Origin: Candidatus Brocadia sapporoensis
GTDB taxonomy: Bacteria > Planctomycetota > Brocadiia > Brocadiales > Brocadiaceae
Direction of reading: 5' to 3'
DNA: 64,000 nt
Assembly: GCF_001753675.2 (NCBI RefSeq)
Contig: NZ_MJUW02000112.1
Location: 1-64,000 of the forward strand
The translations under genes were made by a program, and so were the position numbers. Each line of letters opens with the position of its first letter. Within the stretch, counting starts at the first letter, position 1. Under the pieces are notes generated by a model. The model saw nothing but the letters and a program-made list of their open reading frames with translations. It was not told the origin of the DNA and ran no database searches. This document shows, piece after piece, positions 7,001 to 51,871 of the stretch.

Positions 7001-9064
7001 CTAATTCGCATTCGTCGCATACTTAAGGTCGAAATTAGTATCATCGTAATAGCCGATATGCTCCTTACCATACGAATCTACTGCTATGGAGGTATACCCG
7101 CCTACGTTTCCACTACTATCCACGGTATAGGTTACCCACGACCCTGAGGCATTCGTGGCATATTTGAGGTCAAGACGATCAGAATCATAATAGCTTATGT
7201 GTACTGTGCCAGCCTTGTCCACGGCAATGGAAGTATACCCGCCTACGGCTCCACCGTTGTCTACGGTCTTGGTTACCCACGATCCTGAGGCGTTCGTTGC
7301 ATACTTGAGATTGCCATGGGTATAATCATAATAACTTATATGCACCTTGTCCGAGGTGTCTATCGCCAGAGAAGTAAACTGTCCGACATCGCCATCGTTA
7401 TCAATGGTCTTGATTGTCCATAAACCAGCGGTATCCGTAGCATTTGTTGCATACTTGAGAATATTTTTTGTGTCATCATAATAGCTTATATGCACTCTGC
7501 CAGATGTGTCCACTGCTATAGAAGTATGTTCTCCCACATTTCCATCACTGTCAATGGTCTTCGTTATCCAGGAACCAGAAGCATTGGTAGCATACTTGAG
7601 GTCTTCGTTTGAGCAATTATAGTAGCTTATATGTGCCTTACCGGACGCGTCCACTTTTATGGAAGTAAACTCCCCTACATTTTCACCGCTATCAACAATC
7701 TCGGTTACCCAGGAACCAGAGGTGTTGGTGGCATATCTGAGTGCGCCGTTCGTGCTATCATAATAGCTTATGTAGACCTTGTTTGATTTATCTAATGCTA
7801 TGGAAGTATACTCACCTACATTTCCTTGATTGTGTAAAGTTTTGATTACCCACGAACCGGTGGCATTGGTAACATACTTGAGGTCGTTTTTTATGCTGTC
7901 ATAATAGCTTAAGTGCACCTTGTTTAAGGTATCTACTGCTATGGAACTATACGACCCCACATTTCCTCCACTATCCACGGTTTCCGTTGTCCATAAACCA
8001 GGAATATTGGTGGCATACTTGATACTACCATCGATGCTGTCATAATAACTTATATGCACATTGCCAGATGTATCCATGGCTATTGAGGTATAACTACCAA
8101 CATTTACATTCCTGGCAACAGTATCCATTATCCATGTGCCGGTGGTATTGGCGGCGTACCTGATGCTGCCGTCTGTGATATCATAATAGCTGATATGCAG
8201 CTTCCCCGCGGTATCAATTGCGATGGAGGTATCTCCTCCTACGGTTCCGCTATTATCGATAGTAGCCAATATCCATGAACCCGATGCGTTCGTGGCATAT
8301 TTGAGGTTTTTTTTGGTAGTATCATAATAGCTGATGTGCGTCTTGCCAGATTTGTCCACTGCAAGGGATGTGTATCCACCTACCCATGCGCTTTTGTCCA
8401 CAGTAACGGTTAACCATGAGCCAGAGGCATTGGTGGCATATTTGAGGTTTTTCTTGGTAATGTCGTAATAACTGATATGTGACTTGCCAGATGTGTCTAT
8501 CCCTATAGAAGTATATGCGCCCACATCTCCGTTGCTATCGATGATATCTATTTTCCATGTTCCAGAGGTATTGGTTGCATATTTGAGATCTCCGTTAAAA
8601 TCATCATAATAACTGATGTGTACTTTATTTGAAGTGTCGACCGCAAGGGAAGTATATCCACCTATTTTCCCGCTGTTGTCCACAATAACGGTTGTCCATG
8701 AGCCAGAGACATTGGTAGCATATTTGAGGTTTTTGTTTGTCTGATCATAATAGCTTATGTGTACCTTGCCTGATTTATCCATTGCTATTGATGCATAACC
8801 ACCTACTCCTGAGGATTGGTCTGCTGTCACAACATGCCATTTACTACCATCATGATATGCATAGTAAAGATTGTTGCCTCCATAAACAATATGAGGATGG
8901 CCATTCTTATCAACGGTGATTGCCTTCGAATAAAAATATTGGGAATACTTTTCTTTAGCAACCGTCTCTGTCTTCCACGGTTTCGCTAATAATGTGTCGG
9001 CCATGAAAGTGAAGGTAATAAAAATTAGAGATAACAAAGCAATTTTATGAACAAGCATTTTCAT
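7001..9064 (-). CDS. Large exported protein of ~14 tandem 47-residue repeats
   Basis: A 687-residue protein with an N-terminal signal peptide (about residues 1-27). Almost the whole mature part is made of roughly 14 repeats of about 47 residues: a YTSIAVDxSGKVHISYYD half followed by LKYATNASGSW and a variable VTVDSSGNVG link. The DNA period is about 141 nt. One unit near the C-terminal third carries a short insertion. The alternation of short strands and Trp/Tyr/Asp turns suggests BNR or propeller-like blades; 14 units could form two propellers. No enzyme is recognised. A surface or paryphoplasm structural or binding role is a guess. Confidence 0.7.
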   Translation of the reverse strand: MKMLVHKIALLSLIFITFTFMADTLLAKPWKTETVAKEKYSQYFYSKAITVDKNGHPHIVYGGNNLYYAYHDGSKWHVVTADQSSGVGGYASIAMDKSGKVHISYYDQTNKNLKYATNVSGSWTTVIVDNSGKIGGYTSLAVDTSNKVHISYYDDFNGDLKYATNTSGTWKIDIIDSNGDVGAYTSIGIDTSGKSHISYYDITKKNLKYATNASGSWLTVTVDKSAWVGGYTSLAVDKSGKTHISYYDTTKKNLKYATNASGSWILATIDNSGTVGGDTSIAIDTAGKLHISYYDITDGSIRYAANTTGTWIMDTVARNVNVGSYTSIAMDTSGNVHISYYDSIDGSIKYATNIPGLWTTETVDSGGNVGSYSSIAVDTLNKVHLSYYDSIKNDLKYVTNATGSWVIKTLHNQGNVGEYTSIALDKSNKVYISYYDSTNGALRYATNTSGSWVTEIVDSGENVGEFTSIKVDASGKAHISYYNCSNEDLKYATNASGSWITKTIDSDGNVGEHTSIAVDTSGRVHISYYDDTKNILKYATNATDTAGLWTIKTIDNDGDVGQFTSLAIDTSDKVHISYYDYTHGNLKYATNASGSWVTKTVDNGGAVGGYTSIAVDKAGTVHISYYDSDRLDLKYATNASGSWVTYTVDSSGNVGGYTSIAVDSYGKEHIGYYDDTNFDLKYATNAN

Positions 9065-13049: not shown

Positions 13050-13688
13050 ATGGCAAAATATTACCCTGTATTCCTGAATATTCAGAATAAGAAATGCCTG
13101 GTGGTGGGAGGTGGCAACGTTGCCTGGCGCAAAGTATGCAGCCTGAAAGAAGCAGGTGCACGGGTAACGGTTGTGTCTCCTGAGTTTTGCCCGGAACTGG
13201 AAAAAGAAACTGGAATTGAGCGGATTCAGCGGAAATATGGCACAGAATTCCTGAAAGAGACGGTACTTGTTGTTGCCTCTACGGATGACGGCGAAGTGAA
13301 TCAGATGGTATATCACGATGCCGTTGAGAGAGGGATGCTGGTAAATGTTGTTGATAAGCCGGAATTTTGTTCTTTCATAGTGCCTTCATCCATAATGCGG
13401 GGTGATCTCTGCATTAGTGTCTCGACGGGTGGTGCTAGCCCCGCTTTAGCCCGTAATATACGGGAATATCTGGAAAAACAGTTCGGTGATGAATACAATG
13501 AATTTACAAAACTCCTGGCAGAGATGCGGCGAAAAATTATTTCCGAAATAAAGGATGAATCTCTAAGACGTGATATCTTGCAGCGTATTGCAGGACTTGA
13601 TATGCTTGATGTTGTTAGAGAAAAGGGTGCATCAGAGACAAAGAAGAAAATGTTAGAGATCATTTCTGAGAAGATTTCCATGAGGTGA
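13050..13688 (+). CDS. Precorrin-2 dehydrogenase / sirohydrochlorin ferrochelatase (Met8/CysG N-terminal type)
   Basis: Makes siroheme from precorrin-2 by NAD-dependent oxidation and iron insertion. The protein has 212 residues, the size of stand-alone Met8-like enzymes rather than trifunctional CysG. The N-terminal Rossmann motif VVGGGNVAWRKV (about residues 18-29) binds NAD, and the GGASPALARNIRE segment near residue 130 is typical of the family. It lies directly upstream of a sulfite reductase that needs siroheme, so context and family agree. Alternative: the same reaction for nitrite reductase or cobalamin precursors, but no such genes are nearby. Confidence 0.9.
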   Translation: MAKYYPVFLNIQNKKCLVVGGGNVAWRKVCSLKEAGARVTVVSPEFCPELEKETGIERIQRKYGTEFLKETVLVVASTDDGEVNQMVYHDAVERGMLVNVVDKPEFCSFIVPSSIMRGDLCISVSTGGASPALARNIREYLEKQFGDEYNEFTKLLAEMRRKIISEIKDESLRRDILQRIAGLDMLDVVREKGASETKKKMLEIISEKISMR

Positions 13689-13845
13689 TTAAGCCGACAG
13701 TTTCTATAGATTTCTTTTTTCTTGCAAGAATTTTTATGAATTGTTAATATTTATTTTGGTAAAATCATTTACTTATTTGCGTAGTCAATTAATGTTTTGT
13801 TAATTGCCTATAAAATAGTAATTTACACCAATGATAGGAGTTCAA

Positions 13846-14736
13846 ATGGCAGAGAAGACAGCGACACAAAGAATAGATCTGAATGAGATGAAATCTGGCG
13901 GATTTATAAAACAAAACCAAAAAGACCTCTTTACGGTCCGGTTAAAAGTCCCGGGTGGACGAATTACTCCGGAAAAGATGGCGAAGATTGCAGAGGTTGC
14001 AAAGAAATATAGCAGGATGGGATTTTGCCATTTAAGTTTCAGACAATCGGTGGAGATTATTGGTGTGCATATTGATGACTTTGATGCCGTGGTGAAAGAG
14101 TTGGCGGCGGTAGGGCAGAAAGTTGCTTCCTGTGGACCGCGGGTACGGGTCCCTACGGCGTGCGGCGGCTGTGAGTATAATCCGAATGGAATTATGGATA
14201 CGCAGTCAAAGGCGCTGGAGGTTGACGAAAAGTTTTTCGGCATCCCATGTCCCCATAAATTTAAGATGGGATTTTCTGGTTGTCCGATTGATTGTACGAG
14301 GACGCGGGAAATGGACTTAGGCTTTCAGGGAGTGGTTTATCCGGTATGGAGTAAGGATTTGTGTAACGGTTGTACTTTATGCGCAAAGGCGTGTCAGGAA
14401 GGCGCAATTGTCTCGGACAAAAAGGGCAGGCCGGTATTTGATGAATCTAAATGCGTGTATTGTGGCGATTGTATTCGGGCGTGTCCAACAGACGCCTGGA
14501 AGGACAAAAAAAAGGGCTGGCTGGTGCGCACAGGAGGGAAACATGGAAGACATCCGCGTGAGGCTGATGCGGTACTGAATTTTTTGCCTGATAATAAAGT
14601 TAATGACTTTATTGACGCTACGATAAAATGGTATAAGGAGAACGGGAAACCTAAGGAAAGAGTCGGCTCATGTATAGATCGTGTTGGTTTGGAAAAATTT
14701 AAAAAAGATGTTGTTGATACCTTTGCAAAAACCTGA
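13846..14736 (+). CDS. Siroheme sulfite reductase (Dsr/Asr-like, fused ferredoxin domain)
   Basis: Predicted to reduce sulfite to sulfide in the cytoplasm using siroheme coupled to a 4Fe-4S cluster. I place the start at ATG 13846, which has AGGAG 5 nt upstream; an ATG at 13831 precedes that site and is less likely. The N-terminal ~75 residues are the ferredoxin-like half, then comes the cofactor region with ACGGCEYNPNG and GFSGCPIDCTR. Two 4Fe-4S motifs follow (CNGCTLCAKACQ and CVYCGDCIRACP). About 296 residues matches short assimilatory or Dsr-like proteins. The first cysteine pair is C-x2-C where family members I recall have C-x5-C. Neighbours supply siroheme and use the sulfide. Confidence 0.82.
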   Translation: MAEKTATQRIDLNEMKSGGFIKQNQKDLFTVRLKVPGGRITPEKMAKIAEVAKKYSRMGFCHLSFRQSVEIIGVHIDDFDAVVKELAAVGQKVASCGPRVRVPTACGGCEYNPNGIMDTQSKALEVDEKFFGIPCPHKFKMGFSGCPIDCTRTREMDLGFQGVVYPVWSKDLCNGCTLCAKACQEGAIVSDKKGRPVFDESKCVYCGDCIRACPTDAWKDKKKGWLVRTGGKHGRHPREADAVLNFLPDNKVNDFIDATIKWYKENGKPKERVGSCIDRVGLEKFKKDVVDTFAKT

Positions 14737-14747
14737 TACGGGTCATC

Positions 14748-15167
14748 ATGAAGAACAAAAAAAAATTTGTTATATTCGCCCATAGCGGAACGTACGATAA
14801 ATTGTATCAGATCATTACGTTAGCAATCACTGCGGCATCGATGGGAAAAGAGACGTATATCTTCCTCTTCTTTTGGGCATTGAAAAGGTTTGTGAATGAA
14901 GAGTTTGATCCTGCAAAGCTGGCTGCCGAATGTGGTGCAGAGGGAGAAAAATTGTTTAAAAGGATGCAGGAGATAAATCCCATTTCACTTCAAGAACTGC
15001 TCCGTGACGTAAGGACCATGGGAAATTTAAAAATTTACGCATGCACTGGCGCAGTGAAATTGATGGAATTGGAAGAATCGTTTGTTAAAACAAGAGTAGA
15101 CGACATCCTTGGTTTAACTACTCTTTTGGAAATAGCGGATGGTTCAGAAACACAGTTGTTTATATGA
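14748..15167 (+). CDS. DsrE-family sulfur-carrier-like protein
   Basis: A 139-residue protein of the DsrE/DsrE2/peroxiredoxin-like fold. It opens with KKFVIFAHSGTYDKLYQ and has a late conserved cysteine in KIYACTGAVKLMEL (near residue 104), the position that carries a persulfide in DsrE-type proteins. Members move sulfane sulfur between sulfurtransferases. It lies 11 bp after the sulfite reductase and 19 bp before the cysteine synthase, within one apparent operon. Here it may accept reduced sulfur from the reductase or hand it to cysteine synthesis; that role is inference. Confidence 0.72.
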   Translation: MKNKKKFVIFAHSGTYDKLYQIITLAITAASMGKETYIFLFFWALKRFVNEEFDPAKLAAECGAEGEKLFKRMQEINPISLQELLRDVRTMGNLKIYACTGAVKLMELEESFVKTRVDDILGLTTLLEIADGSETQLFI

Positions 15168-15186
15168 TTAAAAATGAGGTTTCGTT

Positions 15187-16149
15187 GTGGCAATCCATGT
15201 GACAGAAAAAAAAGCCGTTGGATACCTGCCGAAGAAGATCCCGATTACCTCAATTTTGGATAAAATAGGGAATACCCCCCTTTTGAAAATTAACAGCGTT
15301 GAGCAGGGGCTAAAAAATAAGGGCGTCGGAATTTATGTTAAGGCAGAATGGTTGAATCCGGGAGGATCGGTAAAGGATCGCCCCGCCTTGCGGATTATAG
15401 AGGAAGCAGAAAAAACCGGCAAATTAACCAGGGATAAAATTATTATAGACTCCACTTCCGGCAATACCGGTATTGCCTATGCCCTCATTGGTGCAAAAAA
15501 GGGATATCAGGTAACTTTGGTGATGCCTCTAAACGTCAGTGAGGAAAGAAAAAGAATTGTACATGCTTTTGGCGCAAATATGGTATTTACTGATCCATTA
15601 CTGGGCTCTGATGGTGCTATGTCAGAAGCGAAAAGGATTGTAACGGAAAACCCCTTAAAGTATTTTTATGCAGATCAGTATAATAACGATGACAATTGGA
15701 AAGCCCATTTTGAAACAACTGCTGTGGAGATATGGGACCAAACTGCTGGTGGCGTGACACATTTTGTTGCGTGTTTGGGCACAAGTGGCACCCTTATGGG
15801 TACTGGCAGACGTTTAAAGAAATACAATCCCGGCATTCAGATAATTGCCGTTGAGCCTGCTACTCCCATTCACGGATTGGAAGGTATGAAGCACATGACT
15901 ACTTCGGTTGTCCCCGGTATTTACGACAAACATTTTCCTGACAGGAAGATAGCGGTAGAAACAGAAGATGCCTACGAGTCTGTCAAAAGACTTGCAGCAG
16001 AAGAAGGTTTTTTTGTGGGATACTCTTCTGGAGCTGCATTTGTGGCATCTTTGAAGGTTGCCAATGAAATTGAGACAGGTACTGTGGTTGTGGTCTTTCC
16101 TGACAGGGGGGATCGTTATTTAAGTACCAGTTTTTGGGCGGGTGGGTAA
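15187..16149 (+). CDS. cysM: Cysteine synthase (CysK/CysM family)
   Basis: A PLP-dependent beta-replacement enzyme that makes cysteine from O-acetyl- or O-phosphoserine and a sulfur donor. The 320-residue protein has the PLP lysine in LNPGGSVKDRPA (about residue 62), the STSGNTGIAYA substrate loop and the GTSGTLMGTGR phosphate-binding loop. The start is GTG at 15187. It precedes a JAMM hydrolase. In mycobacteria CysM works with a thiocarboxylated carrier (CysO) and such a hydrolase (Mec), so a carrier-dependent donor rather than free sulfide is possible. The symbol cysM is chosen for this context; cysK is equally possible from sequence alone. Confidence 0.85.
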   Translation: MAIHVTEKKAVGYLPKKIPITSILDKIGNTPLLKINSVEQGLKNKGVGIYVKAEWLNPGGSVKDRPALRIIEEAEKTGKLTRDKIIIDSTSGNTGIAYALIGAKKGYQVTLVMPLNVSEERKRIVHAFGANMVFTDPLLGSDGAMSEAKRIVTENPLKYFYADQYNNDDNWKAHFETTAVEIWDQTAGGVTHFVACLGTSGTLMGTGRRLKKYNPGIQIIAVEPATPIHGLEGMKHMTTSVVPGIYDKHFPDRKIAVETEDAYESVKRLAAEEGFFVGYSSGAAFVASLKVANEIETGTVVVVFPDRGDRYLSTSFWAGG

Positions 16150-16185
16150 ATAGCAAAAAGATCACATCTTTAAGGGGCTGAAAGC

Positions 16186-16602
16186 GTGCTGTGTATTGAT
16201 AAGGATAAACTCAGCGAAATCGAAAAAGAAGCGAGACAAAGCTATCCTGTGGAATGCTGTGGGTTGTTAATTGGTACGAATACCTCAGAAAAAAAAGTGA
16301 TTGAAGTTCGTTCTATACGAAATACAAACACGGAAAGAAGTCATGACAGGTATGAGATAGAAGGCAGGGAGTTTATAAAAGCCGATAAGGAAGCGGCACG
16401 AAAAGGACTACAGATCATTGGGATATATCACTCTCATCCTGATCATCCGGCCATTCCTTCAGATTTCGATACTGAGCATGCATGGTGCGGTTACTCTTAC
16501 CTGATAGCTGCTGTAGAAAATGGTATAAAAATTGAAATCAGATCATGGGTTTTTGATGACGAAAAGAAAGTCTTTCAAGAAGAAGAAATAAATGGGAGTT
16601 AA
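16186..16602 (+). CDS. JAMM/MPN+ zinc metallopeptidase (Mec-like)
   Basis: A 138-residue JAB1/MPN+ domain protein. The JAMM motif is complete: upstream Glu in YPVECCGLLIG (about residues 22-32), then HSHPDH followed by PSDFD near residue 90 (H-x-H-x7-S-x2-D pattern). Prokaryotic relatives include Mec of Mycobacterium, which releases cysteine from the carrier protein CysO. The start is GTG at 16186 with AAGGGG upstream. The position right after cysteine synthase supports a Mec-like role. No ThiS/MoaD/CysO-like carrier with a C-terminal GG is seen in the cluster, so the substrate is unknown. Confidence 0.83.
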   Translation: MLCIDKDKLSEIEKEARQSYPVECCGLLIGTNTSEKKVIEVRSIRNTNTERSHDRYEIEGREFIKADKEAARKGLQIIGIYHSHPDHPAIPSDFDTEHAWCGYSYLIAAVENGIKIEIRSWVFDDEKKVFQEEEINGS

Positions 16603-16707
16603 ACGGAAAAGGTGGAAATTGTTGATAACAAAAGCAAGATTCACAAACTTTTAATTTTGCGTAATTGCAACAATTTATTAATTTAATTCAATGTTTCAGG
16701 TTTAAAA

Positions 16708-16953
16708 ATGACAGAAGAAGAAAAAATTATACCCGATGATAAAATTGATTTAAGAGGGGTGCTTTGTCCAATTAACTTTGTGAAAACAAAGTTAAAACTG
16801 GAAATGATGGATTCAGGCCAAGTTTTGGAGGTTATGTTAGACGATGGTGAACCTATCAGGAGCGTTCCAAAAAGTGTTAAAGAAGAAGGACACAAAATTG
16901 TACAAGTAGAAAATTTGGGAAATGCATATCGTTTATTGATTAAAAAATCATAA
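16708..16953 (+). CDS. TusA-family sulfur carrier protein
   Basis: An 81-residue TusA/SirA/YedF-like protein. The family motif is present as LRGVLCPINFVKTK (residues 15-28), with the persulfide-carrying cysteine at about residue 20, although the usual CPxP is CPIN here. TusA-type proteins pass sulfane sulfur between enzymes. It closes the sulfur cluster 105 bp after the JAMM gene and 178 bp before the bc-complex operon. It may deliver sulfur for cysteine or cofactor synthesis in concert with the DsrE-like protein. Confidence 0.82.
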   Translation: MTEEEKIIPDDKIDLRGVLCPINFVKTKLKLEMMDSGQVLEVMLDDGEPIRSVPKSVKEEGHKIVQVENLGNAYRLLIKKS

Positions 16954-51126: not shown

Positions 51127-51871
51127 TCAAATTCCGGAGCCGTCTGAACAATTTATATTGCAGTACTTTGGCCCATCGTCACTGGCATTTGCCAGGTGTC
51201 GACAGCGGCCTGTTCGTAGGCCTTCTTCCCATTTGGCCGGTGTAGTGCAGCATTCGCACCCAGTGCTGGGATAGTTTTGTTTATGCAGGGGAGCACAGGC
51301 ATGTTATTTTACTGAAGGTATGTCTGAATCTGTTCGTTTATCCAGTCAAATATCAGGTGCAGGGTGTACCACTCTCTCCGGGAATCCTGGATAAGAGTCG
51401 CCAGTTTGGCGCGCCGGCCGCCTATGCAACGGCGTAATCCAATCATTGCAAGTCTGCGTCCAGACTGCTCCATACGGGTAATAAATGGTACAGTTTTCGC
51501 AAACGATAGTATTTTTTCTGGCCGTAGCGGGAGGAATATAATTTTCATTCAAATTTCTTTTCCTGCTGCTCCGTAATCAGTTCCGGGTATAAGGTCACGA
51601 TGGTTAATTGGTAATGGCGAATAAATTCATCCGGAGGTTGCAGAGTTTTCCGGAAATGGTAGCCCGTATCTACGAATAGCACCTCGTTTCGCAGTTCCAT
51701 ACGATAAAAGCAGTGCCTCAGAACCAAGGCTGAACTCTGCATGCTGCTTAAAAGGACGGCATCCTTGCCAATGACCTCCACTGCCCGTCTAATGTGCTCC
51801 ATAAGAGTGAAGCACTCCAACTGCTTATTTGCGGTTGATACATCGAGTTCCAAAGTGTCTTTCATCGTCAT
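51127..51871 (-). pseudogene. cysH: Decayed APS/PAPS reductase
   Basis: Reading the minus strand from ATG 51871, the first frame gives LLSSMQSSALVLRHCF and EVLFVDTGYHF, hallmarks of CysH, and stops at 51545. A second frame (51548-51309) continues RMEQSGRRLAMIGLRR and LIQDSRREWYTLH to YLQ, then TAA. A third frame yields NYPSTGCECCTTPAKWEEG and PKYCNINCSDGSGI down to TGA at 51127. So one nonsense change and at least two frameshifts break a gene of about 245 codons. The C-terminal Fe-S cysteines are still readable. It cannot make a working enzyme. Confidence 0.85.

Follow-up and report, generated by a model that had tools for sequence, protein, structure and literature searches.

Closest described systems

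Cysteine formation through a protein thiocarboxylate is known from Mycobacterium tuberculosis, where CysO, CysM, MoeZ and Mec act in the pathway (PMC3227635, PMC11361707). The present analysis concerns a cluster of six genes (positions 13050-16953) in a stretch of 64,000 nucleotides from the anammox bacterium Candidatus Brocadia sapporoensis (contig NZ_MJUW02000112.1, positions 1 to 64,000; in the following the window). The cluster probably constitutes one half of a protein-thiocarboxylate pathway to cysteine that is split in this genome, namely the half for reduction and release. As in the mycobacterial pathway, a CysO-like carrier with a Gly-Gly end, a pyridoxal phosphate (PLP) enzyme of the CysM family, an E1 activating enzyme of the MoeB/MoeZ family and a JAMM protein with a complete metal motif are present. 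Unlike there, carrier and E1 are unlinked, the carrier bears a tail, the E1 comprises no fused rhodanese domain and CysM no C-terminal extension, whereas a sulfite reductase, TusA and DsrE are found in the cluster.

Operons of JAB, ThiS, E1, SirA and sulfite reductase genes, including a fusion of ThiS with sulfite reductase, were predicted by Iyer, Burroughs and Aravind in 2006 (PMC1779556). The locus resembles row 4e of their Table 1 in the clustering of sulfite reductase, JAB and TusA/SirA and in an E1 without rhodanese, and row 4c in having a cysteine synthase within the cluster. It differs from these rows in combining features of 4c and 4e, in the addition of DsrE, and in the position of carrier and E1, which lie outside the cluster here but inside the deltaproteobacterial operons described below.

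A further counterpart is the thiocarboxylate-dependent methionine pathway of Wolinella succinogenes, whose description by Krishnamoorthy and Begley (2011) is cited in PMC5764234. Homocysteine is reportedly formed in it via MetY. A JAMM protease is said to remove the extra C-terminal residue or residues of the carrier there, while the sulfite reductase reportedly supplies sulfide. The carrier considered here likewise comprises residues after its Gly-Gly. MetY, unlike in the Wolinella pathway, is absent from the cluster; the rest of the genome was not searched for it.

A CysO-like carrier and a MoeB-type E1 outside the cluster

A sequence-only reading of the window had noted that no ThiS/MoaD-like carrier is visible. 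This holds true for the cluster, but not for the genome, since a search for the ThiS family (PF02597) returned two proteins, neither of them encoded in the cluster. The first is ThiS, located beside a ThiG-like gene (the latter named by eye). The second is a ThiS/MoaD-like carrier of 93 amino acids (aa) with the C-terminus AGG-NL, encoded beside a ThrC-like gene. Its best solved match was CysO of M. tuberculosis (3dwg_C, E 1e-23) with 46 of 91 residues identical (51%), from an entry that also contains a CysM chain, and its other top solved match was 4n6e, a ThiS/MoaD family protein; models of the SAMP1/MoaD family were matched as well. The same reading had left room for a distant CysO and had proposed to look for a CysO/ThiS homologue with a C-terminal Gly-Gly, and it is this unlinked carrier that was found.

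Among 62 Brocadiales genomes, the carrier was matched in 55, with varying match lengths; every one of the 38 genomes with a completeness of at least 90% and a contamination of at most 5% is among these. Fifty carrier loci were read. The Gly-Gly is reached in 49 of them and is followed by 1-24 variable residues in 41, while ThiS of the same order ends exactly at GGG in 40 of 40 cases, with a tail in none (Fisher p 1e-17, uncorrected for relatedness). Since the tail is present in the carrier and absent from ThiS, it points to JAMM as the processing protease. The C-terminal Gly-Gly of CysM itself was also considered as a carrier end, but was ruled out because its relatives end in AGV, AGI, KYY and others.

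Two E1 enzymes of the ThiF family are encoded in the genome, both outside the cluster, and one of them is of the MoeB type. Compared with the MoeB of the deltaproteobacterial operons, the MoeB-type enzyme scored 365-385 bits, whereas the other ThiF protein scored 105-120 bits. The MoeB-type E1 lacks a fused rhodanese domain, and a separate rhodanese open reading frame (ORF) adjoins it. The second ThiF protein (C21:37293-37988) is the less likely E1 of the pathway, as the deltaproteobacterial E1 matches the MoeB-type one. It comprises a C-terminal extension and lies beside a 225-aa protein (contig C21, L006:810-2514), and ThiF-family matches of similar length recur in most Brocadiales genomes.

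Linked versions in other phyla

When named genomes were scanned with the alignment of the reductase, the loci of Brocadiales were followed by 36 others with 57-66% identity, nearly all of them labelled Deltaproteobacteria. Where the contigs are long enough, most of these deltaproteobacterial metagenome-assembled genomes (MAGs) read ThrC-Dsr-TusA-carrier-CysM-JAMM-MoeB in one run, and most of their carriers end in AGG plus two residues. In most of the loci inspected, carrier and CysM are separated by the gene of a small protein; the one such protein scanned contained a NIL domain. Aliarcobacter showed the order CysM-JAMM-carrier-MoeB with one residue after the Gly-Gly and an inserted insertion sequence (IS) element. 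In Nonomuraea, a JAMM-carrier-CysM set is accompanied by a separate carrier beside a ThrC paralogue. CysM adjoins JAMM in Brocadiaceae, other Brocadiales, deltaproteobacterial MAGs and Aliarcobacter. The linked runs of the deltaproteobacterial MAGs and of Aliarcobacter thus tie the unlinked carrier and E1 of Brocadiales to the cluster in the window, and the connection to CysM/JAMM/CysO chemistry drawn in the sequence-only reading is supported. In plasmid searches, the reductase matches listed were mostly AsrC with about 30% identity, and several records were without annotation.

These results bear directly on the idea that DsrE and TusA take the place of a thiocarboxylate carrier, i.e. that persulfides are relayed from the reductase to CysM without any ubiquitin-like protein. 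The two persulfide families are indeed adjacent and their cysteines are conserved. However, a CysO-like carrier is present in the genome and is part of the operon in the closest relatives beyond Brocadiales, no DsrE was found in the deltaproteobacterial operons examined, some Brocadiales lack it as well, and JAMM would be left without a substrate. The replacement of the carrier as originally suggested is therefore not supported, and a relay of this kind appears very improbable. Because of the same absences, DsrE is unlikely to be an essential relay; it is apparently an addition of Brocadiales.

Genes of the cluster and their conserved residues

All six ORFs are intact, lie on the + strand and are supported by Pfam/NCBIfam matches, in agreement with the families first named for them. 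The first gene (13050-13688, +) encodes a SirC/Met8-type precorrin-2 dehydrogenase/siroheme ferrochelatase (PF13241, PF14824; TIGR01470 160 bits). As it comprises the N-terminal domain of CysG only, without the methylase half, the initial label of siroheme synthase correctly placed it in siroheme synthesis, but was slightly too broad.

The second gene (13831-14736, +) encodes a sulfite reductase with siroheme and 4Fe-4S, a member of the AsrC/DsrAB/Fsr superfamily (PF03460, PF01077, two 4Fe-4S (Fer4) domains), which scored 130 bits against TIGR02912, below the cut-off. In an alignment of 13 sequences, most homologues share a start corresponding to position 13846, which is probably the conserved start. 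Among solved structures, the best relatives (E 3e-43) are F420-dependent sulfite reductases, matched in their C-terminal halves. Like Fsr and AsrC, the protein belongs to the siroheme/4Fe-4S family with an inserted ferredoxin domain; unlike Fsr, it has no F420 domain. The CX3C motif of the siroheme cluster is present, while CX5N stands in place of CX5C in all 81 sequences; the invariant Asn117 aligns to the second CX5C cysteine of the solved F420-dependent enzyme. Cys101, Cys111, Cys151 and Cys155 are invariant, and as a guess Cys101 could be the substitute cluster ligand.

The DsrE/DsrE2-like putative persulfide carrier (14748-15167, +; PF13686, PF02635) showed its best solved match with 2qs7 (E 2e-15), and its Cys99 is kept in 60 of 61 Brocadiales copies. 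It is followed by the CysM-type PLP cysteine synthase (15187-16149, +; PF00291), with 365 bits against TIGR01138, slightly below the cut-off of 394. CysM orthologues score far higher than the CysK of the same genome. Lys235 is invariant in 51 homologues; we take it, as a lead only, to correspond to the phosphate-binding arginine of the mycobacterial enzyme. The JAMM/MPN+ metallopeptidase (16186-16602, +; PF14464) is Mec/desampylase-like, with 2kcq and PfJAMM1 as solved relatives and a match to the archaeal desampylase model. Its Glu23, HxH (82, 84), Ser92 and Asp95 are invariant in 67 Brocadiales and 19 deltaproteobacterial copies. The last gene (16708-16953, +; PF01206) encodes a TusA-family sulfur carrier with the motif CPxN instead of CPxP, of which Cys20, Pro21 and Asn23 are invariant in 67 + 35 copies.

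From the reductase through TusA, the intergenic gaps amount to 11, 19, 36 and 105 base pairs (bp), and 142 bp separate SirC from the reductase. Upstream of the cluster lies lysA, and downstream follow Rieske, NAD(P)-binding and cytochrome b-like genes. Elsewhere in the window, positions 7001-9064 of the - strand encode a 687-aa protein consisting largely of repeated HISYYD...LKYATN...GSW units.

Conservation within Brocadiales

The gene order, whose conservation had been proposed as a check, is kept as LysA-SirC-Dsr-DsrE-CysM-JAMM-TusA-Rieske-GltD-CytB in nearly all Brocadiaceae loci examined, with SirC preceding the reductase wherever the contigs include that region. Most loci of the other Brocadiales families showed a core of reductase, JAMM and TusA, with DsrE and CysM variably present and DsrE missing in several. 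Since the same order recurs in Brocadiaceae, its core in other families and a related run in another phylum, the cluster is not a product of chance. Among the single deviations, JAMM and TusA lie on another contig than reductase and CysM in one genome (G002), about 3.5 kb separate JAMM from the downstream TusA in L114/L216, and the gap between reductase and DsrE is enlarged in L214; in the latter loci the cluster is otherwise conserved. JAMM was found in 59 of the 62 genomes, and a CysM match (E <= 1e-60) likewise in 59, a count that includes CysK matches. Split reading frames were observed in G020, where SirC and the reductase each form two ORFs, and in Scalindua rubra, where the reductase is split (L107, L122/L241).

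Proposed route to cysteine

The presence of the parts, their catalytic residues and conservation, the carrier tails and the linkage in another phylum together suggest the following sequence of reactions. Sat and AprAB, which are encoded together on contig C69 (Sat, AprA and an AprB-like ferredoxin gene) and unlinked to the cluster, would deliver sulfite. SirC would provide the siroheme for the sulfite reductase, which would reduce sulfite to sulfide. The MoeB-type E1 is predicted to adenylate the Gly-Gly end of the CysO-like carrier, and sulfur derived from the reductase, possibly passed on as persulfides of TusA and perhaps DsrE, would turn the adenylated carrier into a thiocarboxylate. CysM would then join the thiocarboxylated carrier to an activated serine, either O-phosphoserine or O-acetylserine, and JAMM would hydrolyse the carrier adduct to release cysteine. 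Additionally, JAMM may trim the residues past the Gly-Gly of the carrier. A match to phosphoadenylyl sulfate/adenylyl sulfate (PAPS/APS) reductase (PF01507) was also observed in the window (51258-51757, - strand); it extends over two frames and is apparently frameshifted, as a pseudogene or through an assembly error.

Several observations weigh against this assignment. The carrier is unlinked to the CysM-JAMM pair in this genome and the MoeB-type E1 is unlinked to the cluster, so that their pairing here is drawn from homology and from the operons of relatives. CysM lacks the mycobacterial C-terminal segment (3dwg_A comprises 325 aa and is matched to residue 310), and 8 of the 49 Brocadiales carriers bear no tail after Gly-Gly. 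In Scalindua-type loci, which read Dsr-DsrE-JAMM-TusA, CysM (about 50% identical) is encoded elsewhere, and one genome (G030) showed no CysM between DsrE and JAMM nor elsewhere above the threshold used. Furthermore, the genome contains a standard CysE-CysK pair (CysK confirmed, CysE named by eye), and the thiocarboxylate route therefore need not be the only one to cysteine.

The latter pair also fits an ordinary sulfide route, in which free sulfide from the reductase would be used by CysM as a plain O-acetylserine sulfhydrylase, while JAMM and the carrier would serve another purpose, for example protein conjugation and its reversal. The resemblance of CysM to the E. coli type without mycobacterial extension and the matches of JAMM and carrier to the desampylase and SAMP1/MoaD-family models agree with this explanation. 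It is nevertheless considered unlikely, as reductase, TusA, carrier, CysM, JAMM and MoeB form a single run in another phylum and Aliarcobacter likewise combines CysM, JAMM, carrier and MoeB. Altogether, a split version of the known cysteine route, and not a new carrier-free one, is the most likely explanation.

The ThrC paralogue and the undetected MoaE

The carrier gene is adjoined by a ThrC paralogue (contig C117, L003:167-1417). This adjacency was observed in 47 of the 50 carrier loci read from Brocadiales, in almost all deltaproteobacterial loci whose flanks were long enough and in Nonomuraea, i.e. in three phyla. A second, plant-type threonine synthase is encoded on contig C29 (E 2e-175 to 1e5x, the threonine synthase of Arabidopsis), to which the carrier-linked copy is 27% identical. 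In the carrier-linked copy, NVNLRPYYGEGSKT takes the place of the NSxNxxRxEGQKT motif of solved enzymes, and the pattern N-x-N-x-RP-[YF]-Y-x-EGSKT recurs in Brocadiales, deltaproteobacterial MAGs and Nonomuraea, although some sequences were not scored by it.

Accordingly, the carrier could be thought to serve chiefly this ThrC-like enzyme, for example in the formation of homocysteine, with CysM as a secondary user. Besides the adjacency, the second threonine synthase and the differing motif, it speaks for this explanation that Nonomuraea keeps a separate JAMM-carrier-CysM set and that JAMM and TusA remain where CysM has left the cluster. On the other hand, the CysM-JAMM pairing is conserved elsewhere, and the carrier-linked copy exceeds the cut-off of the NCBIfam thrC model, so that it could be a genuine threonine synthase. 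We judge this explanation to be quite improbable.

A MoaE match (PF02391) was obtained in a single one of the 62 Brocadiales genomes (G017), on a small contig that also carries a MoaD-like gene; the other 61 yielded none. A role of the carrier as plain MoaD partner of MoaE was rejected for this reason. In most of the genomes, ThiS and the CysO-like carrier were the only members of the ThiS/MoaD family seen. As a doubtful extension of the proposed cysteine route, the carrier might be a shared sulfur hub that would serve CysM for cysteine, a misannotated ThrC paralogue for homocysteine or another product, and, in Brocadiales, also molybdopterin formation via an enzyme other than MoaE.

Implications

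No earlier description of the route in anammox bacteria was found in a limited search of the open-access literature, which left most subscription journals outside. The case demonstrates that reading a gene neighbourhood can imply a carrier-free pathway if the carrier is encoded elsewhere. The variable tail after Gly-Gly, present in the JAMM-associated carrier and not in ThiS, offers a testable processing signature. Sharper questions arise as to the role of the carrier-linked ThrC paralogue and the completion of molybdopterin without a recognisable MoaE. For the anammox bacteria themselves, the results assign a likely route of sulfur into cysteine, which is conserved across most of the order Brocadiales.

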